From a bacterium (GTDB lineage Bacteria > Myxococcota > UBA727 > JAUIJE01): DNA of 64,000 bases. The notes beneath the pieces were generated by a model. It had not been told where the DNA came from. It did not search any database and worked only from the letters and a program-made list of their open reading frames with translations. Made by a program: the position numbers and the translations under genes. Shown in pieces: positions 13,649 to 58,294 of the stretch. Each line of letters begins with the position of its first letter. Positions within the stretch are counted from its first letter, which is position 1. The stretch spans positions 62,001 to 126,000 of the forward strand of contig JAUIJE010000007.1 in NCBI GenBank assembly GCA_030431455.1, given 5' to 3'.

Positions 13649-14935
13649 ATGAAAAAACTCACGCATTGGATTCTGTTTGTGTTCCTGGTCTCGGTGGCCG
13701 GGGCGATGAATGTGGGCTGTCCCGGCGACACCGGTGACGGTGACGGTGACGGCGACGGCGACGGCGATGGCGACGGCGACGGTGACGGAGATGGCGACGG
13801 AGATGGCGACGGCGACGGCGACGGTGATGGTGACGGAGATGGCGATGGCGATGGAGATGGCGACGGAGATGGCGATGGTGACGGAGATGGCGACGGTGAT
13901 GGCGATGGCGATGGCGACCCGGGCAACTGCACGGACTACTGCGCCACGGTGATGGCCAACTGCACCGACGACAACGCCCAGTATGGGTCGATTGCCGAGT
14001 GCGAGGACTACTGCAACAATGCCAGTGGATGGGAACCCGGTCTCGATTCCGACACCGGGGGCAACACCATTGGGTGCCGCACCTACCACGGGGGCGCGCC
14101 CGCGGCGGGCGACCCGATCACGCACTGTCCGCACGCAGGGCCCACCGGGGCCAACACCTGCGGCACGTGGTGCGAGGTGTACTGCGGGTTGTGGGAGAAC
14201 AACTGCGCCGGCCAGCCGGGCGACTACAACAACACCAACGAGTGCTTGGCCACGTGCGCGGGCTTCGACGACTCTGGCAACCCCGGGGACGCGCAGTACG
14301 ACACCGTGCAGTGCCGCATCTACCACGCGGGCACGCCGGCCGCGGCCGACCCCGGCACGCACTGCGCGCACGCACGGGAAGAGCCGTCGTCGGAGTGTGT
14401 GGGGCTGCCCACCGACTACAACTTCCGCGACGACCCGCCGACCGCCTACGACCAGGTCGACCGGGTGGGCATGCCCGCGGTGTCGACCGCGCTCATCACC
14501 AGCAAGGCGGCGTACAACGCGGACTCCCCCGCGAACGACGCGACCTACGCGGGTGAGATCGTGGCCTCGATCGCGGCGCTGCACACCGCGCTCGACGACG
14601 ACATCACCGGGGCGACGCTGACGCCGTGCGACACCGACGGGTTGGACGGTGATGACTGCCACGAGCAGGAAGTGGCGCCGGGCGTGCCGGTGGCCGCGCT
14701 GGTCATCCCCGACACGTTGACGTTGAACGGGGGCGCGACCGCGACCTTCCCCAACGGGCGGTACCTGGCCGACCAGGCGATGGACATCACCTTGGCGGTG
14801 ATTCTGCTCGACCTGACCCAGCACCCGGCGGACACCCTCGCGGGCTTGCCGCTCAACCCGCCGGAGAACGACCTCGGCGTCGAGGGTGCGTTCCTGTCCG
14901 GGTTCCCGTACCTGCACCCGGCGCACCTGCCGTAG
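13649..14935 (+). CDS. DUF4331-like lipoprotein with a 31-unit Gly-Asp linker and Cys-rich repeats
   Basis: A 428-residue predicted surface lipoprotein (lipobox MNVGC, Cys24). Directly after the lipid anchor runs a Gly-Asp repeat of about 31 units (DNA 13732-13918), expected to be flexible, highly acidic and perhaps calcium-binding. Two related Cys-rich modules follow (CTDYCATVMANC...; TWCEVYCGLWENNC...), each ending in a CRxYHxG-x-P segment. The C-terminal part contains RVGMPAVSTALITSKAAYN, which resembles the C-terminal RxGxPLVNE region of DUF4331. The linker presumably holds the folded domains away from the membrane. A strong terminator follows at 14951. Confidence 0.8.
   Translation: MKKLTHWILFVFLVSVAGAMNVGCPGDTGDGDGDGDGDGDGDGDGDGDGDGDGDGDGDGDGDGDGDGDGDGDGDGDGDGDGDGDGDGDGDPGNCTDYCATVMANCTDDNAQYGSIAECEDYCNNASGWEPGLDSDTGGNTIGCRTYHGGAPAAGDPITHCPHAGPTGANTCGTWCEVYCGLWENNCAGQPGDYNNTNECLATCAGFDDSGNPGDAQYDTVQCRIYHAGTPAAADPGTHCAHAREEPSSECVGLPTDYNFRDDPPTAYDQVDRVGMPAVSTALITSKAAYNADSPANDATYAGEIVASIAALHTALDDDITGATLTPCDTDGLDGDDCHEQEVAPGVPVAALVIPDTLTLNGGATATFPNGRYLADQAMDITLAVILLDLTQHPADTLAGLPLNPPENDLGVEGAFLSGFPYLHPAHLP
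13732..13918 (+). repeat. Hexanucleotide-type (Gly-Asp)n coding repeat
   Basis: About 31 tandem GGN-GAY codon pairs with irregular third positions (GGC/GGT/GGA, GAC/GAT). Each unit is 6 bp, so slippage changes linker length without shifting frame. A second such tract lies at 55099-55255 on the other strand. Confidence 0.95.
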
Positions 14936-48385: not shown

Positions 48386-49087
48386 TCAGCCCGGCGCGAA
48401 CAGCCGGTGCAAGCGGGGCTCGTCGACGGTGGCCGACGGGGCGGGGCCGAGGGCGGGGCGGCCGCGTTGCAGCCCCAGCACAATGTCTGTGCAGTCAAGC
48501 GCGGTCTTGAGGTGGTGGGCGGCGATCAGCACCGACGCGCCGGCCGCGGTGCGGCGCCGCAGGGCCGACGCCACGAGGTCCTGTTTGCCCACGTCGAGGG
48601 AGGCGAAGGGCTCGTCGAGCACGAACAACCTCGCCTCGGGGTGCACAAACACCCGCGCGAGGTGGGCGCGTTTTTGTTGGCCGCCGGACAGCTGGGACAG
48701 GGGCTCGTCGAGGAGCGTGGCGAGGTCGAGCTCTTCGGCCACCGCGCGCACCGCGGGGTCGCTGGCGGGGGCGCGGCCGCGCACGGGGTAGAGCCCCTGG
48801 GCGATGCGCTCGCGCACGGTGAGGGCGACCGCGACCGGGCGCTGGCCCAGGCTGGCGATGCGCCGGGCGCGGTCCGCGACCGACAACGCGGCGAGGTCGT
48901 CGCCCAGCAGCCGCGCGGTCCCCGACGACAGGGGCAACAGCCCGCACACCGCGTCGAGCAGGGTGGACTTGCCCGCGCCGTTTTGCCCGAGCACGGCCAA
49001 GGCTTCGCCGGGGTGAACGCGCAGGCTGACGTCGTCGAGCACCGGGCGCCCGGCCCGGGTGACGCGCAGGCGGTCGAGCTCAAGCAT
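48386..49087 (-). CDS. btuD: Vitamin B12 ABC transporter ATPase (BtuD-type)
   Basis: A 233-residue ATPase of the FecE/BtuD class: Walker A GQNGAGKST (residues 35-43), signature LSGGQQKR, Walker B LFVLDEPFASLD and the H-loop AAHH. It starts inside the permease gene (8-nt overlap) and is the last gene of the riboswitch-controlled operon, so its substrate is most likely cobalamin. Convergent with gpsA, with 13 nt between them and no terminator visible. Confidence 0.9.
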   Translation of the reverse strand: MLELDRLRVTRAGRPVLDDVSLRVHPGEALAVLGQNGAGKSTLLDAVCGLLPLSSGTARLLGDDLAALSVADRARRIASLGQRPVAVALTVRERIAQGLYPVRGRAPASDPAVRAVAEELDLATLLDEPLSQLSGGQQKRAHLARVFVHPEARLFVLDEPFASLDVGKQDLVASALRRRTAAGASVLIAAHHLKTALDCTDIVLGLQRGRPALGPAPSATVDEPRLHRLFAPG

Positions 49088-50036
49088 GGCTTTGACCATT
49101 CCGCAACTGTCGAAGCAAAATCCAGGCGAGGCTGGGCGCCCCCACCAGCGCGGTGATCGCCCCCACCGGGAGCTCGGTGCCCAGCGAGGCGAACAGCCCG
49201 CGGCAGGCCGCGTCGGAGAGCACGAGCAGCGCGGCCCCGAGCAGGGCCGCGGCCGGGACCAGCCGGTGATGGTCGGCGCCGACCAAGGCCCGGGCGAGGT
49301 GGGGCACGACCAGGCCGACAAACCCGATCATGCCGCACACGGGCACGAGCGCGCCCACGATCACCGCCGTGACCACCAGGGCGCGCCGCCGCACCGGCAC
49401 GGGGTCGACCCCGAGGCGGCGGGCCTCGTCGTCGCCTGCGCGCACAATGTTGAGCCGGTCGGCGTCGCGCAAGAGCACAAAAAGGCCCGCGCCGAGCACG
49501 GCCGCGAGCGCCCCGAGCACCGTGGGCGCGGGGTAGCGCAACATGCCCACGAGCCAGAACAGCATCGACTGCGCGGTGGACGCGTCGACGAGGGTCTTGA
49601 CCAGGGTGATCAACGCCGATGCAAAGGCGTTGATCAAAATCCCGATCAGCAACACGAGCTCCCCCGTGCGATGGGCGGGCGCGCGCACCAGGGCCGCGGC
49701 CAGCACGAGGGTGGCGAGCAGGGCGCCCCCGAGGGCGCCGGCTTCGAGCAGGCCGAACGCGGTGGGCAACAGGGCGATCACCAGCGCGCCCCCGAGGGCG
49801 GCGCCCCCGGACACGCCGACCACGTAGGGGTCGGCGAGCGGGTTTTTGAACAGGCTCTGCAGCACCGCCCCGCACACCGCGAGCGCCCCCCCGGCCAGGG
49901 CCCCGAGCAGGACGCGCGACCAGCGCAAAAAGCCCGCGGGCACATCGAAGCCGGCCGGGCCGACAAAACCCGCCGCGCCCACCGCCAGCACCGCCCCGGC
50001 GGCGAGCCCGATCAGGGCCCAGCGGGCGCGGGTCAT
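49080..50036 (-). CDS. btuC: Vitamin B12 ABC transporter permease (BtuC/FecCD-type)
   Basis: A 318-residue, roughly ten-TM permease of the FecCD family. GALAVCGAVLQSLFKNPLADPYVVGVSGGAALGG is the family's central signature, and GFVGLVVPHLARALVGADHHRLVPAAALLGA is the coupling-loop region. Joined to the binding-protein gene by ATGA overlap upstream and to the ATPase downstream. Confidence 0.92.
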   Translation of the reverse strand: MTRARWALIGLAAGAVLAVGAAGFVGPAGFDVPAGFLRWSRVLLGALAGGALAVCGAVLQSLFKNPLADPYVVGVSGGAALGGALVIALLPTAFGLLEAGALGGALLATLVLAAALVRAPAHRTGELVLLIGILINAFASALITLVKTLVDASTAQSMLFWLVGMLRYPAPTVLGALAAVLGAGLFVLLRDADRLNIVRAGDDEARRLGVDPVPVRRRALVVTAVIVGALVPVCGMIGFVGLVVPHLARALVGADHHRLVPAAALLGAALLVLSDAACRGLFASLGTELPVGAITALVGAPSLAWILLRQLRNGQSHA

Positions 50037-50899
50037 GGGGCGAACACCAGGCGCCGCAAAATCGCGACGTCGGCGGGCAAAGACACCCCCGGCCGCATCA
50101 GGATGGGGGCGTCGGGCGCGCGCACCGCGGGGGCGCTTTTGCCGAGGGGGGCGAACATCGCGCGCAGGGCCTCACCCGCCGCCGGGCCCTCGGCCGCGAC
50201 GACCACGTCGACGTCGAGGCTGGCCACCGCCTCGAGGGACAGCACCGGCCAGGGGGCGTCCACCGACAGCGCCAACCGGGCCCCGATGAGCGCGACCGCT
50301 TCGGCCGCGAACGCGTCCCGGCCCGCGACCACCAGCGGCCGGGTCGCCACCGCGACCAGGACCCGCGGGGCGTCCGGCACCGGCGGCCGCGACAGCTTGG
50401 CCAGCGCCTGGTCGAAGTCCGCCACCGCCCGCTGCCCGGCTTTGGGCACCCCCAGGGCGCGGCCGACCCCGGCGATGAGGTCGCGGGTCTCGCGCAGGCG
50501 GTCGGCGAACCCCACGAACACGGGGATGCCGCGGGCGGTGAGCTGCTCGAGCACGTCCCGCTGGCCCGACGAGGGCATCGCGAGCACCAGGTCAGGCTTC
50601 TGCGCGAGCAGCGCCTCGAGGTTCACGTCGACATAGCCGCCGACCTTGGGCAGCGCTTTGGCCGCGGCCGGTCGATCACAAAATCGCGTCACCGCCACCA
50701 CCCGGTCGCCGGCCCCGAGGGCGAACGCGATTTCGGTGGTGACCGGGGCCAGGCTCACGACGCGGGCGGGCGGGTGGGGGGGCCGGTGGTCGAGAAAATG
50801 GGCCGTGCGCCGCGCGTCGGGGTCGGCGCCGTAGACCCAAAAGGGAACCAAACAGGCCGCGGCCAGCGCCGCGGCGGCGACGAGGAGCGAACGGGTCAT
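50033..50899 (-). CDS. btuF: Cobalamin-binding periplasmic protein (BtuF-type)
   Basis: A 288-residue substrate-binding protein of the class III (helical-backbone) family. RVVSLAPVTTEIAFALGAGDRVVAVTRFCDRP, then KVGGYVDVNLEALLAQKPDLVLAMPS and GIPVFVGFADRL match BtuF/FepB-type proteins. A hydrophobic N-terminus ends either at a possible lipobox (LAAAC) or at a signal peptidase I site near VYGA; which one is unclear. ATGA overlaps at both ends place it mid-operon. Confidence 0.88.
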   Translation of the reverse strand: MTRSLLVAAAALAAACLVPFWVYGADPDARRTAHFLDHRPPHPPARVVSLAPVTTEIAFALGAGDRVVAVTRFCDRPAAAKALPKVGGYVDVNLEALLAQKPDLVLAMPSSGQRDVLEQLTARGIPVFVGFADRLRETRDLIAGVGRALGVPKAGQRAVADFDQALAKLSRPPVPDAPRVLVAVATRPLVVAGRDAFAAEAVALIGARLALSVDAPWPVLSLEAVASLDVDVVVAAEGPAAGEALRAMFAPLGKSAPAVRAPDAPILMRPGVSLPADVAILRRLVFAP

Positions 50900-52431
50900 G
50901 GGCCAAACTCCGCGTGCGGGGCCAAGGTCACAAGCTCGTTGGACAGCGACAGCAGCGCCAGCGCCTGGGTCCCGTCGGGCGCGGCCGCGACGTCGAGCAG
51001 GCCTTGGGTCAGGGTCACGCCCGCCGCCCGCACATCGAAGCCCCCCGCGGGCAGGGGGGCGGGGTCGGCGGTCAGCGTGCCCAAGTCCAGGGTGTGCAGG
51101 CGGTCGGTGGAAAAGACCGGGGCGAACACAAGCTCGGCGGGGCCTCGGATCAAGGTGAAGACCGCGTCCAGGCCCGTGCCCGGGAGTTCTATAATTGCGG
51201 AAGTATCGAAAGATGTATCCTCGGGGTGCAACACCGCCACCGCGGGGCGGACGAGGCTGCCCACCGCGATGCGGTCCCCGACGAGCACGGGGGTGGCGGG
51301 GGCAAAATGGCCGGCGGTGATGCGCCGCACCGGCGGGCCCCCCCCGGCCACATCGAGGGGATAGAGGGCGAGGCTGCCGAGCGAGATGGGCTGGTACCCG
51401 TCGGCGTACGGGCCGAACGCGCCCGACGCGCTCACCCACACGCCCTCGTCCCCCACCGCCAACCCTTGGGGGTTTTGGTCGGGGAGCACGGTGTGGCCCT
51501 CGAGCTCCAGGCGTTGCGCACGGATGCGAAACCGCGCGAGCACACCGGGGGCCAGGATTTGGCCGTTGTCGTCGTCGGCGGGGTTGAGCAGGTTGGTGTA
51601 CGCGACCAGGGCGACGTCGCCGGCCACCACCACCGCCTGGGGGTGACGCCAGGCCACGGCCAGGGCGATGTCGTCGACGGTGCCGTCCTCGTCGGTGTCC
51701 AGGGGCGTGCGCAGCGGGCGCGGCCACAACAGCTGGTCCTGGGCCAAGGCCCCGCTGTCGTCCCGGGCCCGGTCGCGAAAGAGCACGGTCCCGGCGCAGG
51801 CGTCGACCAGGGCGATCTCGTGGGTCGCGTAGAGCGTCACCACCGCGCGGCCGTCCCCGGTGGGGGCGAAGGCAAACGGATTGGCCCCGGCGCCGTCCGG
51901 GCCGAGGGCGAAGGGGGTCGAGCGGGCCGCGTCCCCGCGCACGTCGAGCGAAGCGTCCCCCGAGGTGAGCGCGGCGGGCCAGAGCCCCCCCGCACACCGC
52001 ACGAACCCGACGTCGTTGGGCAGCGCCCCGGTGGGCGCGCGGTCGCCCACGGTGCAGGCGCCGCTTCCGTCCCGGACCCGAAACCGGGCCCAGGTGTGGC
52101 GCGCGCCCTCGGCGAAGTCGACGTCGACCGTGTCCTGGCCTTCGTCGGCAAAGCGCAGCGTGGCCCGGCCCTGCTCGTCGACCACCGCCTCGGTTCCGCC
52201 CGCGGTCACCACCGTGCCCGGGGGCGCGGCGCCGGTGAACAGCTGCAGCACAATGTCTGTGCCGCGTCGCCCGCAGGCCATGTGGGTGCCGGCGTAAGGG
52301 GCGGGCAGGGTCTCCGCGACCGGGCCGCAGGGCGCGGGGTCGTCGGGACCGGGGCAGGCGGGGCCCGCCAAAACCGTGAGGGCCAAGGCCGCACCCAGGG
52401 CCAGGCGCGGGGGGGACGGGGAGAGGGTCAT
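50896..52431 (-). CDS. Beta-propeller-like lipoprotein of the B12 operon
   Basis: A 511-residue predicted lipoprotein (Cys after LTVLAGPA). Residues 35-170 contain four Cys. From about residue 180 repeated strand blocks follow with blade-like ends (VTLYATHEIALVDACAGTV; DVALVAYTNLL; AVGDEGVWVSASGAFG; DRIAVGSLVRPAVAVLHPED; RLHTLDLGTL), resembling YncE/BtuG-type propellers. A calcium-loop-like DTDEDGTVDDIA is present. Between the TonB receptor and btuF it is placed to help capture or hand over corrinoids. Codons for residues around EDTSFDTSAIIE are unusually A/T-ending (51189-51221). Not a family I can name with certainty. Confidence 0.75.
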   Translation of the reverse strand: MTLSPSPPRLALGAALALTVLAGPACPGPDDPAPCGPVAETLPAPYAGTHMACGRRGTDIVLQLFTGAAPPGTVVTAGGTEAVVDEQGRATLRFADEGQDTVDVDFAEGARHTWARFRVRDGSGACTVGDRAPTGALPNDVGFVRCAGGLWPAALTSGDASLDVRGDAARSTPFALGPDGAGANPFAFAPTGDGRAVVTLYATHEIALVDACAGTVLFRDRARDDSGALAQDQLLWPRPLRTPLDTDEDGTVDDIALAVAWRHPQAVVVAGDVALVAYTNLLNPADDDNGQILAPGVLARFRIRAQRLELEGHTVLPDQNPQGLAVGDEGVWVSASGAFGPYADGYQPISLGSLALYPLDVAGGGPPVRRITAGHFAPATPVLVGDRIAVGSLVRPAVAVLHPEDTSFDTSAIIELPGTGLDAVFTLIRGPAELVFAPVFSTDRLHTLDLGTLTADPAPLPAGGFDVRAAGVTLTQGLLDVAAAPDGTQALALLSLSNELVTLAPHAEFGP

Positions 52432-54137
52432 GACGCGACCTCCAGCCCGACGAACACCACGCGCCCGGGCAACGGAAACAAGTACATGTCGGCCGCGTCG
52501 GTGCGGTTGAACACGTTCTGGGCGCTGACCGACACCGCGACCCCGGGGCCGAGCGGGTGGCTGAGCCCGAGGTCAAACAATGTATAGGCAGGGGTCTTGA
52601 GCGTTCCGAACAGGTTGCTCGCGGTGGGGCCCCGGTGCCGGGCGGTGACGAGGACCCGGGTGGCGGTGGGCGGTCCGAGCGCGAGCCGGCCGCGGCCCTG
52701 CACCGGGGCGGCCAAGGGCAGGGGGGCGCCGGACGCGAACACCTGGCTGTGCAGCAGGCGGCCGGACACGTCGAGGGTCACCCACCGGGCGGGCCGGCTC
52801 CGCACCCGGCCGCTCACCCCCGCGCGCCACCCCGGGCCGGTGTTGATGGGCGCGATTTCGTATGCGTTGCGGTTGGTGAACAAAATCGCGTCCCAGATGA
52901 TGCCCCCAAAGGGCGCGACCTCGACGACGGTGGCGCGGGGCAAGCGCAACACCAGCGCGGCGTCGACGTCGGTGAGCGCCTCGGGCACCAGGTCGGGGTT
53001 GCCCAGCACCAACCCCCGGGGCGCGAACAGCTCGTCGAGGGTGGGCGCGCGGGGGCGGTGGGCGAGGCCGAGGCGGAGGTCGGCGGGCCCGAGCCGAAGG
53101 GCCGCGGTGGCCTGGCCCCCGACGAGCAGGCCTTGGTCGCTGAGCCAATCCCCGCGGGCCTGCGCGGAGAGCACAAACGGCCCCGCCCGCCCGGTGGCCG
53201 CGGCCTTCGCGAACACCGCCTGGCGGGCAAAGCCCGTGGCCAGGACCGCGGTCCGTTCCGCGCCCAGGGTCAGGGCCGCGTCGAGGCCCGCGGACACCAC
53301 GCCGGCGCGGGCCGAGACCCCGGTGTGCACCGCCGCGACCGCCTCGGCGGCGCCGGTGCGCGTGACCGCGCGCCGGGTGGACAGGCGCGCGGTGGGCGCG
53401 AACGCGATGTCGACCGGCCCCGCCCGCCCGGACAGGTGGGGCCTGACCCCGAGCAGCGCGCGCTGACCGCGCAGCCCGTCGGTGGGGGCGGCGGCGAACC
53501 CGGGCACGCCCCCGTCGTGAAACGTCCCCAGGGCGGTGGCCCCGACCTCGGCGCGGCCGAACCGGGCGCGGCCCGCGGCGAACAGACCGGCCCGGGTCTG
53601 GTCGTTGTTGGTCCGGACCTGGGCAGGCGACAGCCGCCCGTCGGGGGTCCGGGGGGTGAAGACAAAATCGCCCGCGGTCCGCGCGAACTGGCCGGCGAGG
53701 GTCGCTTCGCCACCGTCGGCGGTCACGTCCGCGCGGAGGTCGGCGCGGGCCGAGGCCAGGCTGCCGAACGCGACCCGGGCGGCGGCCCCCGACGTGACCG
53801 GCGCCGGCACCGCGAGCGCGAGCCCCGACCCCGACCGCGCCGCGCGGGGGGCGAGGTAGAGCGGCGCGAAGGCCGCGTCGATGTCGCCGCTCGCGGGGTC
53901 GGCCAGCGAGAGCCCGTCGACCCGGAGCCCGGCCCGGGGGCCGCTCAACCCGCGCACCTCGAGGCGCACGGGGGCGAGCGGGCCACCCGATTGGGCGAGC
54001 CCGGCGTCGGGTTCGGCCGCGAGGCGCGCGGTGGGGTCCTCGGCCGCGGCGGGGGCCACGGTGGGCGCGCCGGCGCGGGCGGTGACCTCGGTCTCGAGCT
54101 GGGCCGCGAACAGCAGGAGGCAGGGCAGGGCGATCAC
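52428..54137 (-). CDS. TonB-dependent outer-membrane receptor, predicted BtuB-like
   Basis: A 569-residue receptor with a GTG start inside the preceding gene's stop (GTGA) and a signal peptide (IALPCLLLFAAQ). The plug is short: VRLEVRGLSGPRAGLRVDGLSLADP. The barrel has the characteristic LGLAHRPRAPTLDELFAPRGLVLGNPDLVPE segment (compare the R-P-S-x-x-E-L-F...NPxLxPE of receptors) and a final strand ending VGLEV. The N-terminal TonB box is not obvious. The riboswitch operon argues for cobalamin as ligand. It is smaller than many receptors, mainly in the plug. Confidence 0.85.
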   Translation of the reverse strand: MIALPCLLLFAAQLETEVTARAGAPTVAPAAAEDPTARLAAEPDAGLAQSGGPLAPVRLEVRGLSGPRAGLRVDGLSLADPASGDIDAAFAPLYLAPRAARSGSGLALAVPAPVTSGAAARVAFGSLASARADLRADVTADGGEATLAGQFARTAGDFVFTPRTPDGRLSPAQVRTNNDQTRAGLFAAGRARFGRAEVGATALGTFHDGGVPGFAAAPTDGLRGQRALLGVRPHLSGRAGPVDIAFAPTARLSTRRAVTRTGAAEAVAAVHTGVSARAGVVSAGLDAALTLGAERTAVLATGFARQAVFAKAAATGRAGPFVLSAQARGDWLSDQGLLVGGQATAALRLGPADLRLGLAHRPRAPTLDELFAPRGLVLGNPDLVPEALTDVDAALVLRLPRATVVEVAPFGGIIWDAILFTNRNAYEIAPINTGPGWRAGVSGRVRSRPARWVTLDVSGRLLHSQVFASGAPLPLAAPVQGRGRLALGPPTATRVLVTARHRGPTASNLFGTLKTPAYTLFDLGLSHPLGPGVAVSVSAQNVFNRTDAADMYLFPLPGRVVFVGLEVAS

Positions 54138-55339
54138 CCCGGGCCCGCCACCCGCACCAGCCGGCGCAGGCCGCCCGGGTGGGTGACGCGGACGAGCAGG
54201 TCGTCGCCGATGGGGGTGATGAAGTCGACAGTTTCGCAACCATCGGACTGGGCGGTGAGCAGCGACGTGACCACCGGGGGGGCGGTGTTGTCGAGCGCAT
54301 CGTCGAACGCGTAGAGCGCGACCTCGTCGAGCACCAACGCAAAGCTGTCGTCGTAGCTGGCGTGGAGCAGGGCGAGGCCGTCGGCGAACCGGGCGGCCCC
54401 CTGGACCTCCCGGGCCACGGGCACGAGGTCGGCGAAGGCCACCGGCGAGCCGAACTGGGCCGCGGCCACCTGCATCACCCGCGCGATGGCGAACCGGTTG
54501 ATGAACTCCCCGTCGGCGTAGCCGACCCCGATCTGCCCGGCCGTGCTCACGGCCAAAAAGCCGCTGCCGGCGAAATCGGCCGGAAATGTGAACAGCGTCT
54601 GGGCGGGGTCGCCGGTGAGCGTGCCCCCGTAGACCGCGCCGCCGTCGCCCACCCCGTCGAGCGCGAGGCTGTTGGTGGCGATGCCGCTGGGGGTCACCGC
54701 GCCGGTCCAGATGCCGGGCGCGGACACGTGGGTCACGGACTGGTCGTCGAACGCATAGGCCGCGACCTGCCCCGGGAAGCTGTCGCTCTGCGCGTCGTAG
54801 TCGAGGGTGTAGCCGGCGAGCATGGTCTCGCCCAAGGGATCGATGTCGAGAAAACCGCTCACATACACATTGGGCGCGGCCTGGTCCGCGGGTGCCACCA
54901 GGTCGAAGACCACCGCGGTGCCGTCGAGGTTCGGCCAGGTGCCGAGGTCGATCACCTCGTGGGTGGCCTGGTCGATGCCGTACACCCGCTCGCCGGCGGT
55001 GGCGAAGGGTCCGATCGTGCTGGGCAGCGCCGCGGCCCCCACTTTGCCGAACGGGGCGGTCAGGGAGCCGAGATCGTCGTCGGTGACCGGGGCGCAGGCA
55101 TCTCCATCCCCATCTCCATCTCCATCTCCATCTCCATCTCCGTCTCCATCCCCATCTCCGTCTCCGTCTCCGTCTCCGTCTCCATCCCCGTCTCCGTCTC
55201 CGTCTCCATCTCCATCTCCATCTCCATCTCCATCTCCATCTCCGTCTCCATCACCGGCCGTGTCCATGGGACACCCGACGAGGACGCCCGCGAGCGACCA
55301 CACAAACACAAACCCCAGCCCACACGATGCTTTCGCCAT
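54134..55339 (-). CDS. Gly-Asp-tethered, propeller-like lipoprotein, first gene of the B12 operon
   Basis: A 401-residue predicted surface lipoprotein (lipobox VLVGC). A Gly-Asp linker of about 26 units (DNA 55099-55255) lifts the folded part off the membrane. The remaining 320 residues are beta-rich with repeating strand-turn blocks (ERVYGIDQATHEVIDLG; AAPNVYVSGFLDIDP; GQVAAYAFDDQSVTHV; VALYAFDDALDN), consistent with a propeller. As the first gene after the cobalamin riboswitch and coupled to the TonB receptor, it is the best candidate for an external B12-capturing lipoprotein like BtuG. AAGGAGG precedes ATG 55339. Confidence 0.8.
   Translation of the reverse strand: MAKASCGLGFVFVWSLAGVLVGCPMDTAGDGDGDGDGDGDGDGDGDGDGDGDGDGDGDGDGDGDGDGDGDGDGDGDGDGDACAPVTDDDLGSLTAPFGKVGAAALPSTIGPFATAGERVYGIDQATHEVIDLGTWPNLDGTAVVFDLVAPADQAAPNVYVSGFLDIDPLGETMLAGYTLDYDAQSDSFPGQVAAYAFDDQSVTHVSAPGIWTGAVTPSGIATNSLALDGVGDGGAVYGGTLTGDPAQTLFTFPADFAGSGFLAVSTAGQIGVGYADGEFINRFAIARVMQVAAAQFGSPVAFADLVPVAREVQGAARFADGLALLHASYDDSFALVLDEVALYAFDDALDNTAPPVVTSLLTAQSDGCETVDFITPIGDDLLVRVTHPGGLRRLVRVAGPG
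55099..55255 (-). repeat. Second (Gly-Asp)n coding repeat
   Basis: About 26 tandem Gly-Asp codon pairs directly after the lipobox. It is the same design as the tract at 13732-13918, in an otherwise unrelated lipoprotein. Confidence 0.95.
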
Positions 55340-55374
55340 CGCGACCTCCTTTGATCAGGACAAAGAGCTCGCAC

Positions 55375-55560
55375 CAGGCGTGCGGGGCCGGCCGTGTGCG
55401 CGGCGCAATCCCTCGCTCCATGCAGGCCGGTCTCCTGGCTCACGGCCGTCGTCCCCGCCCCCTTCCCAGCACCGAGGTGCCAGTGGGTCTGTGGCGGGGC
55501 ATGACCGATTACAGTGGCGCAACCGCGCCGGATTTTCACCGGCTTCCCTGATCGCTTTCG
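55375..55560 (-). promoter_or_regulatory. Cobalamin riboswitch
   Basis: On the minus strand the conserved elements occur in order: GGGAAGCCGGTGAAAATCCG (ending at 55549), GCCACTGTAATC (55507-55518), a GC-rich P6/P8-like region, and the B12-box-type AGCCAGGAGACC (55429-55440). It precedes the lipoprotein-receptor-btuFCD operon by about 35-40 nt. No T-run terminator is seen before the first gene's strong AAGGAGG, so control is more likely at translation initiation. Confidence 0.95.
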
Positions 55561-55594
55561 CGATCGCCCGCAAGGTCGTTCAAGTTGTCCGACG

Positions 55595-55623
55595 ACTATG
55601 GAGGCTCGACCGCGGCCGCACAA
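55595..55623 (-). promoter_or_regulatory. Putative promoter of the B12 operon
   Basis: Minus strand TTGTGC, a 17-nt spacer, CATAGT, placing the start some 25 nt before the first conserved riboswitch element. Confidence 0.45.
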
Positions 55624-55663: not shown

Positions 55664-58294
55664 ATGATGTCGTCGAAAACCGCGCGCGTTCGCCCCGCAC
55701 CCGCCGCCACGTGGGCGGCCGGGCTCTGTTTGACCCTCCTGCTCGGCGCTGGTTGCCGGCCGTTCGCCGGGGTGGGTGACAGCTGTCTGCAGACCCCGTG
55801 CAAAAGCGGCCTGTTGTGCGTCGAAGGGGTGTGCAGCATCGACGTGGTCCTGCCCGAGCCCGAGCCCGAGGCCGAGCCTCCGGTCGACTGCGTCACCACC
55901 GCCGACTGCGGCGTGGGGGGCTCGACCGACGGCCGGTCCTGCGTCGACGGGGAATGTGTCTGGACCGATTGCACAGACGACGGCGACTGCGGCGGCCGGG
56001 TCTGCGAGGACGGCCAGTGCGCGCCCATCGAGGAGTGCGATTTCGACGACGACTGCAAAGAGGGCCGCCTGTGCCTCGACGGGGTGTGCCGGCCGCCGTG
56101 CGAGGACGACGCCGCGTGCGGGGGCTTTTTGGGGGTGTGCGTAGACGGGCGGTGCACCTCGAGCTGTTTCATCGACTTGATGTGCGGGACCGACATCTGC
56201 CTCGACGGCGTGTGCAGCGCGCCCGACTGCGGCGCCGACGAGGACTGCCCGGGGGACAACGTGGCCTGCGACGGGGGCCGCTGCGTCGAGTTCACCCCGT
56301 GCGAAGACAACGAGGACTGTTTCGACCCCGACTTTTTGTGCAACGACCTCGGCCGCTGTGAGCCGCGCCCCGCGTGTTACATCGACGCGGACTGCGGCGC
56401 GGCCCAGCTCTGCATCGGCGATGTGTGCCGCGACACCGAGACCTGCGGCGCCGACGACGACTGTCCCGGCGCCGGGGACGAATGTGTCGTGGGCGTGTGC
56501 GTCCCGGGGCCCAACTGCCGCCACGACGGCGACTGCGGCCCCGACGAGGTGTGCGCCAACCTCAACTGTGTCGACCGCCAGCTCGGCACCGCGGTCGAGG
56601 TGTCGATCACCACCACCCACGGGGTGTGCGAGGCCGACGGCACCGGCGCCTGCCGGCTGATGCTGTTCACCGGCGAGCAGGTGCCGGTGCGCATCGCCGC
56701 GTTCGACGCCGACGGCGCGCGCATCGACGCCGCCCTCGACGTGCTCAGCGAGGACGACGGGGTCGCGAGCATCACCACCGCGGGCTTGATCGACGCCAAG
56801 GCCCCGGGCCGGGCCCAAATCGCGGTCGACACCGGGCAGGTGTCCGAGCACCGCGCGCTCATCGTCGACGTGGTCGCGCCCGAGCCGACCGCGTCCCTGG
56901 TCGTGCTCGTGGCCAGCCGCCGCACCGGCGAGCCGCTGCCCGGGGCGTTGGTGCGCGCGGGGGCCCAAAGCGCGCTCGCGGGCGTCAACGGCCGCGCGGT
57001 GTTCCTGTCCCCGCCGGCCCCGGACGCGGCCGGCATCAGCGGCCTGGTCGTGACCCACGACGCCCACGTGGGCATGGCCGTGCAAGGGGTGGCGCTGTCG
57101 GGTCGGCTGCGGGTCCTGCTCGACGAGCGCACCCCGCCCGCATTGGTCGCCGGGGCCCGCGCCGAGGTGCAATCGACCGGGGACGAGACCGGCCCGGTCG
57201 GCTACGGCTTGGCCCTCGCGTCGGCCCCGTCGCTGCGCGCGGCCGGCTACGCTGAGCTGTTCGGCGGGGGGGTCAACGGGGCGCTCGAGGTGCCCCTCAT
57301 CGGTGGCCTGCCGGTGGCTTTGCCCCAGACCGCGACCTTGGAGGCCTCGCTCCCGGTGGGCGGGGGCAGCCAGGTCGTGCGCGACGTCGCGTTTGTGCCC
57401 GCGGTCCCGGGCCGGCGCGTGCTCACCGCGTTCGAGTCCCGGCGCGACAACGGTGATTTGTTGAGCGTGGTGTTCGGGGCCGACGCGGTGGAGTTCGGCC
57501 TCGACCGCGCGGCCGAGGCCGAGGGCGCGGACATCTTGGTCCGCCCTTTGGGTCGCATCGCCGGTCGCGCCCTGGTGCCCGACACCGGCGACTTCGACGG
57601 GGACGGCAATGTCACAGAGTCGGTGCCCGACTACGACAACTTCCCGTTCACCATCGTCGCCCCCGAGCGCCGCCCCACCGAGCGGGTGGGGCTCGACATG
57701 CCCACGACCAACCTGCCCGGGCGGTCGCGGTTGCTGGTGGTGGCCGGCCAAGAGTTGAGCGGGCTCGGCTTTGTCGTCACCGGGCTGCTCGCGTTCACCC
57801 CTGGGCCCGACCCGGTCCAGGTCAAGGTGGTGGCCCCGACCCGCGGCCGCACCGACGGGTCCCGCGCGCTCCGGGTCGAGGCGCTGCTCGACGATCCCGC
57901 GGCGCGGTCCTTCGCGATGTGGCGGGGCCCAGGCTTTTTGTCCTCCGTCGAGGTCGCGCCCCTGATGGCCCCCCCCGACGCGCCCTTCGTGCTCGACGGG
58001 GTCCCGATGCCGGGCACGGCCACGCTGGTGTTGCCCCAGACCGCGGGCGCGTCCGCGTTTGAGGTGCGGTTTGACCTCGACGGCGCGCCGCTGGTGGTGA
58101 CCGCCCCCGCGGGCGCCAACCTCGGGCTGCCGGCCGCGCTCAGCGCCGGGACGTTGAGCGTCACCGAGGTCACGTCCTTGCGGCTCGCCCAGCCCGCGAT
58201 CGTGGCCATCGCCCAGACCATGCTCACCGGGGACGGGCCGCGGCCGCGGCTTGTGGACACCGCCCAAGCGGTCGCGATCAACCGGGCGCCGTGA
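55664..58294 (+). CDS. Large Cys-rich-repeat lipoprotein
   Basis: An 876-residue predicted surface lipoprotein (lipobox LLGAGC). Residues about 40-310 are some ten copies of a Cys-rich module, of the form D-C-x-x-D-x-D-C-x-x-G-x-x-C-x-x-G-x-C (CTDDGDCGGRVCEDGQC; CDFDDDCKEGRLCLDGVC), like the Dickkopf/EGF-like knots frequent in this phylum. A Big-2-like Ig domain follows (VPVRIAAFDADGARIDA, then VASITTAGLIDAKAPGRAQI), then a long beta-rich region. Likely a cell-surface adhesion or binding protein. The riboswitch region lies divergently upstream. Its 3' end overlaps the convergent glycosyltransferase-like gene by 17 nt. Confidence 0.82.
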   Translation: MMSSKTARVRPAPAATWAAGLCLTLLLGAGCRPFAGVGDSCLQTPCKSGLLCVEGVCSIDVVLPEPEPEAEPPVDCVTTADCGVGGSTDGRSCVDGECVWTDCTDDGDCGGRVCEDGQCAPIEECDFDDDCKEGRLCLDGVCRPPCEDDAACGGFLGVCVDGRCTSSCFIDLMCGTDICLDGVCSAPDCGADEDCPGDNVACDGGRCVEFTPCEDNEDCFDPDFLCNDLGRCEPRPACYIDADCGAAQLCIGDVCRDTETCGADDDCPGAGDECVVGVCVPGPNCRHDGDCGPDEVCANLNCVDRQLGTAVEVSITTTHGVCEADGTGACRLMLFTGEQVPVRIAAFDADGARIDAALDVLSEDDGVASITTAGLIDAKAPGRAQIAVDTGQVSEHRALIVDVVAPEPTASLVVLVASRRTGEPLPGALVRAGAQSALAGVNGRAVFLSPPAPDAAGISGLVVTHDAHVGMAVQGVALSGRLRVLLDERTPPALVAGARAEVQSTGDETGPVGYGLALASAPSLRAAGYAELFGGGVNGALEVPLIGGLPVALPQTATLEASLPVGGGSQVVRDVAFVPAVPGRRVLTAFESRRDNGDLLSVVFGADAVEFGLDRAAEAEGADILVRPLGRIAGRALVPDTGDFDGDGNVTESVPDYDNFPFTIVAPERRPTERVGLDMPTTNLPGRSRLLVVAGQELSGLGFVVTGLLAFTPGPDPVQVKVVAPTRGRTDGSRALRVEALLDDPAARSFAMWRGPGFLSSVEVAPLMAPPDAPFVLDGVPMPGTATLVLPQTAGASAFEVRFDLDGAPLVVTAPAGANLGLPAALSAGTLSVTEVTSLRLAQPAIVAIAQTMLTGDGPRPRLVDTAQAVAINRAP

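Follow-up and report, generated by a model that had tools for sequence, protein, structure and literature searches.

Does a cobalamin-uptake operon in a member of the Myxococcota encode surface lipoproteins that capture corrinoids for its receptor, as BtuG does in Bacteroides? The operon lies in a 64,000-nucleotide stretch of a single contig, hereafter the window. It occupies 48386-55586 on the minus strand, where a cobalamin riboswitch is followed by genes for a lipoprotein (LipA), a TonB-dependent receptor, a second lipoprotein (LipB), BtuF, BtuC and BtuD, see Table 1. We consider it somewhat more probable than its denial that this is a corrinoid-scavenging operon in which LipB and LipA capture corrinoid for the BtuB-type receptor, followed by import through BtuFCD.

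Table 1. Features of the operon (window coordinates) and of the related loci used to detect the permutation.
Feature	Location	Strand	Basis
Cobalamin riboswitch aptamer RF00174	55408..55586	-	97.5 bits, E 4e-23, full-length match, model 1-189
Strong Shine-Dalgarno of LipA, AAAGGAGGT	55344..55352	-	sequence
LipA lipoprotein: lipobox LVGC, Cys23; acidic tether; six-bladed beta-propeller	54134..55339	-	sequence, model, Foldseek
Gly-Asp tract of LipA: 26 repeats, 52 residues (residues 29-80)	55100..55255	-	sequence
LipA propeller domain (predicted)	54146..55045	-	AlphaFold2 pLDDT 91.6, pTM 0.91
BtuB-like TonB-dependent receptor	52428..54137	-	Pfam, family profile vs PDB; GTG start overlaps LipA stop
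LipB lipoprotein: lipobox GPAC; Ig-like domain; about seven-bladed YncE/NHL-type propeller	50896..52431	-	sequence, model, Foldseek
LipB N-terminal Ig-like beta-sandwich (residues 51-118, predicted)	52078..52281	-	model
LipB propeller domain (residues 128-503, predicted)	50923..52050	-	model, Foldseek, alignment
BtuF-type periplasmic corrinoid-binding protein	50033..50899	-	Peripla_BP_2 8e-22; best NCBIfam model BtuF, below cut-off
BtuC-type permease	49080..50036	-	FecCD 3e-68; best NCBIfam model BtuC, below cut-off
BtuD-type ATPase	48386..49087	-	ABC_tran 2e-26
Permuted propeller lipoproteins, BtuB-adjacent	L138:2811-3902, L139:5411-6511, L142		
Compared with, BtuB-adjacent	L137:3260-4348, L136:2881-3957		

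The riboswitch scores far above the RF00174 gathering score of 31.5 bits and covers the full model. Adjacent genes overlap by 4 nt, except BtuC and BtuD, which overlap by 8 nt, and the six genes are therefore probably translationally coupled. The riboswitch and the six overlapping genes, in this order, had been proposed in the initial annotation, and both are borne out by the Rfam match and by six minus-strand reading frames that each overlap the next. The LipA start is separated from the aptamer match by 68 nt. Its Shine-Dalgarno AAAGGAGGT lies inside a predicted hairpin formed by GCGAGCUCUUU and AAAGGAGGUCGC (fold of 55325-55425), an arrangement that would suit translational control of LipA. 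This can be taken as a hint at most, because the folding energy of the full segment is unremarkable against shuffled sequence (z -0.23). On the other side of the operon start, a divergently transcribed gene (55730-58294, plus strand) encodes a large Cys-rich lipoprotein-like protein of 854 residues. Similar large proteins are found beyond the operon in two related loci (L042, L046), and the neighbourhood is thus partly conserved.

The genome as a whole points to a need for imported corrinoids. No CbiC was found in this 7.7 Mb, 96.9% complete genome, while six B12-binding domains score over the cut-off; the bacterium is therefore probably unable to make the corrin ring and must import corrinoids, i.e. 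it is probably a corrinoid scavenger. The window riboswitch is the single cobalamin riboswitch detected in a genome search with stricter filters. Across the phylum, CbiC is present in 13 of 195 genomes and the cobalamin riboswitch in 181.

As a single sequence, the window receptor is divergent. It matches the Pfam barrel domain TonB_dep_Rec (8e-9) and, partially and below threshold, the Plug domain; a candidate TonB box, ETEVTA, is located near the mature N-terminus. When a profile of 12 receptor relatives is compared with the PDB, the ten best matches are all BtuB, with E. coli BtuB at 7e-30 and the Bacteroides proteins at 1.5e-29 to 2e-22. By this ranking and the barrel domain, the receptor is a TonB-dependent receptor closest to BtuB. 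All three components of a BtuFCD importer are recognised by their Pfam domains within the same operon. Together with the riboswitch, these matches uphold the earlier description of the locus as a B12 uptake operon.

Against the strict NCBIfam models for B12 equivalogs the receptor and the ABC components stay below the cut-offs, the receptor reaching only 13.1 bits with the BtuB model TIGR01779, where 599.7 are required. Such scores could be taken to mean that the operon imports a related molecule, e.g. cobinamide, another cobamide or a porphyrin, and not cobalamin itself. The cobalamin riboswitch that controls the operon argues against this, as does the finding that the closest receptors of known structure are BtuB, and we regard it as very improbable. 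Moreover, BtuG accepts many different corrinoids as ligands (PMC10404256), and this alternative therefore overlaps with the corrinoid-scavenging reading that we prefer.

The receptor plug had been described as short and taken as a sign that the receptor depends on a partner. The plug stretch is 103 residues long, shorter than in most relatives but within the range of 89–123 residues found in those with a complete N-terminus: it is 110–123 in family f5 and the Myxococcaceae and 89 in one f4 relative. The window receptor also lacks the conserved segment around YGxxxLGG, which is retained, in one form or another, by its relatives in f5 and the Myxococcaceae. A short plug is thus not a family trait, and it says nothing about partner dependence, because the longer-plug receptors of f5 and the Myxococcaceae also have LipB-type partners. 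In one relative, G172, the BtuB-like receptor gene (L044:7715-9622) contains two in-frame TGA codons (8249 and 8660) while the adjoining LipB, BtuF, BtuC and BtuD are open; this receptor may be a pseudogene or reflect an assembly error.

Are the two lipoproteins propellers, as BtuG is? The AlphaFold2 model of LipA contains 24 strands, arranged as six blades of four, and its Foldseek matches are beta-propellers. The LipB model (pLDDT 83, pTM 0.83) shows about seven blades preceded by an Ig-like domain, and here the best Foldseek matches include seven-bladed YncE and G-beta, besides other propellers. A propeller is thus predicted for both proteins, where a different fold would have spoken against the initial annotation. 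Within the LipB propeller, an EF-hand-like loop, DTDEDGTVDD, is conserved in 10 of 11 relatives. Both propellers are acidic, with pI 4.0 and 4.5. No sequence similarity between them is detectable (hhalign probability 0.2%), in agreement with the earlier impression that they are unrelated to each other. Neither contains a DUF4465 domain in a Pfam search. LipA has no relative in Pfam, NCBIfam or the PDB beyond its low-complexity tether, and LipB as a single sequence has no match in these three databases.

The Gly-Asp tract of LipA has the length of roughly 50 residues given to it earlier, but it is not a special feature of this protein. An eight-repeat pattern of 48 bases has 4,589 start positions across the genome and none in a reversed control, and we therefore reject the tether as a feature of B12 uptake. 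The window itself encodes a further lipoprotein with such a tether (13649-14935, plus strand; tract 13733-13918, 62 residues). In relatives of LipA, the same position is occupied by Gly-Glu or Asp-Ala-Gly-Thr repeats, so that what is conserved is the presence of a long, mostly acidic spacer and not its sequence.

LipA recurs at cobalamin riboswitches. Within 31 loci carrying 44 LipA genes, 33 of the genes, in 27 of the loci, lie within 400 nt downstream of such a riboswitch. LipA is directly before the receptor in the window genome and its relatives (G000, G181, G182, G183, G184, G185, G186), and a riboswitch was detected upstream in all but G184. Seven relatives share the gene order with LipB, and six of them have LipA in front of the receptor; it was not detected in G172. 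In the Myxococcaceae, LipA is present in one to five copies and follows cobalamin riboswitches, and a separate scan names Corallococcus, Myxococcus, Pyxidicoccus, Archangium and Hyalangium as carriers. A short match to the LipA N-terminus was also obtained in Comamonas sp. KCTC 72670 (L117), a record that is possibly mislabelled or a contaminated assembly.

LipA is also missing from many LipB loci, and in an Archangium (L057) it belongs to a separate riboswitch unit at a distance from btuB, so it is separable from import. This separability would agree with LipA being an accessory that binds no corrinoid and serves, for example, vesicle release or some other surface docking, with LipB alone as the BtuG-like partner of the receptor. 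A precedent exists in B. thetaiotaomicron, where two lipoproteins of B12 riboswitch operons, BtuL and BtuK2, showed no binding of B12 (PMC12751083). Since operon membership is consequently no proof of B12 binding, we remain cautious about LipA as a corrinoid catcher. The riboswitch control of LipA is however widely kept, and its compact acidic propeller shape suits ligand binding, which makes a non-binding LipA rather unlikely in our view. Near the stand-alone LipA unit of the Archangium, another cobalamin riboswitch (L057:1165-1381) precedes an unrelated set of genes, which encode aminotransferase-, dehydrogenase- and CoA-transferase-like proteins.

A conserved lipoprotein of about 230 residues often follows LipA behind the cobalamin riboswitches of the Myxococcaceae. 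Its family is present in 98 of 195 genomes (e.g. L060:8684-9397 and about 30 relatives) and also occurs within BtuB-LipB loci of other families (L047, L048, L145). The copy in the window genome (L081:7818-8504) has no B12 neighbours. We considered this lipoprotein as a relative of BtuJ/DUF4465 and rejected the idea for want of Pfam or PDB support and because of the isolated copy in the window genome.

The recurrence of LipB is wider. A scan of the contig set with LipB alone gave no relative; whole-genome searches with the single sequence found relatives in 11 genomes, the window genome included, and profile searches gave matches in 105 of 195 genomes, the weak ones including generic propellers. 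In 18 genomes, a same-strand cobalamin riboswitch precedes a LipB-type gene by 1.9–3.3 kb, and ten further LipB loci were read and confirmed. In every LipB locus read, the gene immediately before LipB encodes a BtuB-like receptor, and BtuF is either the next gene or separated from LipB by one or a few others. The order riboswitch, BtuB, LipB-type propeller and BtuF is found in many families of the Myxococcota. The versions in the Myxococcaceae are longer and contain STIG1-type Cys-rich repeats; a profile comparison connects them with LipB (97.8%, E 8e-13). The gene-order search that had been proposed as a check of the initial annotation therefore finds both LipB-type and LipA loci beside B12 genes in other Myxococcota.

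The adjacency of the BtuF gene to LipB could also be read differently, with both lipoproteins facing the periplasm, where they would assist folding of the receptor or relay the ligand to BtuF and capture nothing at the surface. Long unstructured tethers and Cys-rich spacers in front of the propellers fit surface display better, and the position beside BtuB matches that of BtuG in Bacteroides. A periplasmic role thus appears improbable, and the surface capture that we favour remains the likelier location for both.

The family alignments reveal that some LipB-type propellers are circularly permuted. The propellers of L138, L139 and L142 (f13 and f15) are permuted relative to those of L137 and L136 (f6). 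Residues 138-360 of L137 align with 19-251 of L138, and residues 28-133 of L137 with 253-365 of L138 (hhalign 99.8% and 88%); with a doubled sequence, the two proteins match at 99.9% (E 9e-32). Between L137 and L139, blastp gives E-values of 3e-26 and 3.6e-9. A permutation among natural relatives of LipB agrees with a fold in which the two ends are near each other, so that a closed propeller is supported from sequence alone. This independently fits the predicted closed ring fold of the LipB family.

Is LipB then a BtuG? It is a lipoprotein encoded next to the receptor gene in a riboswitch locus and its propeller has about seven blades, as in BtuG; the LipA propeller, with six, differs from BtuG in this respect. 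The phylum-wide LipB profile ranks BtuG1 first among 177,635 PDB sequences, with 8ptf, 8ptd and 8blw_B, all with the same BtuG1 sequence, at E 1e-10 to 6e-10, a small margin over designed NHL-like propellers, which reach 1e-8. Here 8blw is the BtuB1-BtuG1 complex (PMC10404256), and 8ptf and 8ptd appear to be BtuG1 from their identical aligned letters. PF16819 (DUF5074), a propeller family named beside B12 loci (PMC13398666), has no match in the LipB proteins, its matches in the phylum being elsewhere than the LipB loci, and a reverse search with a BtuG1 fragment did not retrieve these loci. As both of these comparisons failed, we do not accept LipB as a straightforward BtuG. It looks like BtuG by context and fold, and its origin may be shared with BtuG or separate.

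The initial annotation had also speculated that the two lipoproteins evolved independently as corrinoid-capture proteins. For LipA, a separate origin is plausible. For LipB, an independent origin is doubtful, as BtuG1 is its best PDB match, yet the failed PF16819 and reverse searches do not speak for a common origin either.

We suggest the following mechanism as the most likely one. At low intracellular cobalamin, the riboswitch would permit expression of the six coupled genes. LipB would sit on the outer face of the BtuB-type receptor and pass corrinoid to it in the manner of Bacteroides BtuG, and LipA, a predicted six-bladed propeller on a long acidic tether, would be a second lipoprotein that captures corrinoid and would let the complex reach further out. 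Powered by TonB, BtuB would then import the ligand, which BtuF and BtuCD would carry on into the cytoplasm. Computation covers the gene order, the riboswitch, the BtuB/F/C/D homology, the predicted folds and the recurrence with B12 genes; that LipA and LipB are at the surface, bind corrinoid, touch the receptor and hand over the ligand in this order is inferred.

At the level of the phylum, we tentatively propose, with somewhat less than even confidence, a Myxococcota-wide and so far undescribed BtuG-like form of B12 capture. Its core would be a divergent and sometimes permuted LipB-type lid on BtuB; in several lineages, LipA would have joined it as a second catcher under riboswitch control. 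We found no description of such an arrangement in Myxococcota in the open-licence literature. According to Wexler and others (eLife 2018, PMC6143338), BtuG homologs are confined to the Bacteroidetes, and the origin of BtuG has been discussed in terms of gut competition (PMC6143338). The recurrence of a propeller lipoprotein beside the B12 receptor across the Myxococcota suggests that these bacteria, too, possess a diverged version of the B12-catching lid that was regarded as peculiar to gut Bacteroides. If the LipB-type propeller stands beside BtuB throughout the phylum, surface B12 capture would be a wider solution for corrinoid scavengers. LipA would bring a new protein family to the few lipoproteins linked to corrinoids, and the circular permutants provide natural experiments on the placement that the ends of a receptor lid require. 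As cultured myxobacteria (Corallococcus and Myxococcus species) carry LipA, the idea is testable.

Among known systems, E. coli BtuBFCD has the same receptor and ABC importer parts, but E. coli is without lipoprotein partners. LipB shares its fold and weak sequence similarity with the YncE, YVTN and NHL beta-propellers; unlike LipB, YncE is no lipoprotein of a B12 locus. Additional riboswitch-controlled lipoproteins, comparable to those of the window, are present in Bacteroides B12 loci as BtuH, BtuJ (DUF4465), BtuK and BtuL. Several phyla, Myxococcota included, have DUF4465 proteins that bind B12 (PMC13398666); BtuJ/DUF4465 is however a jelly-roll, while LipA is a predicted six-bladed propeller. 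The closest parallel is the BtuB-BtuG system of B. thetaiotaomicron, which, like the window, has a cobalamin-riboswitch operon with a lipoprotein propeller beside BtuB as well as btuF, btuC and btuD. BtuG binds corrinoid with very high affinity and forms a lid on BtuB. The B12-binding face of BtuG2 is acidic (PMC10404256), like the two propellers of the window. In contrast to BtuG, LipB has an extra Ig-like domain, or STIG1-type Cys-rich repeats in the Myxococcaceae versions, and LipB follows the receptor gene, whereas in B. thetaiotaomicron locus 2 btuG2 comes before btuB2.
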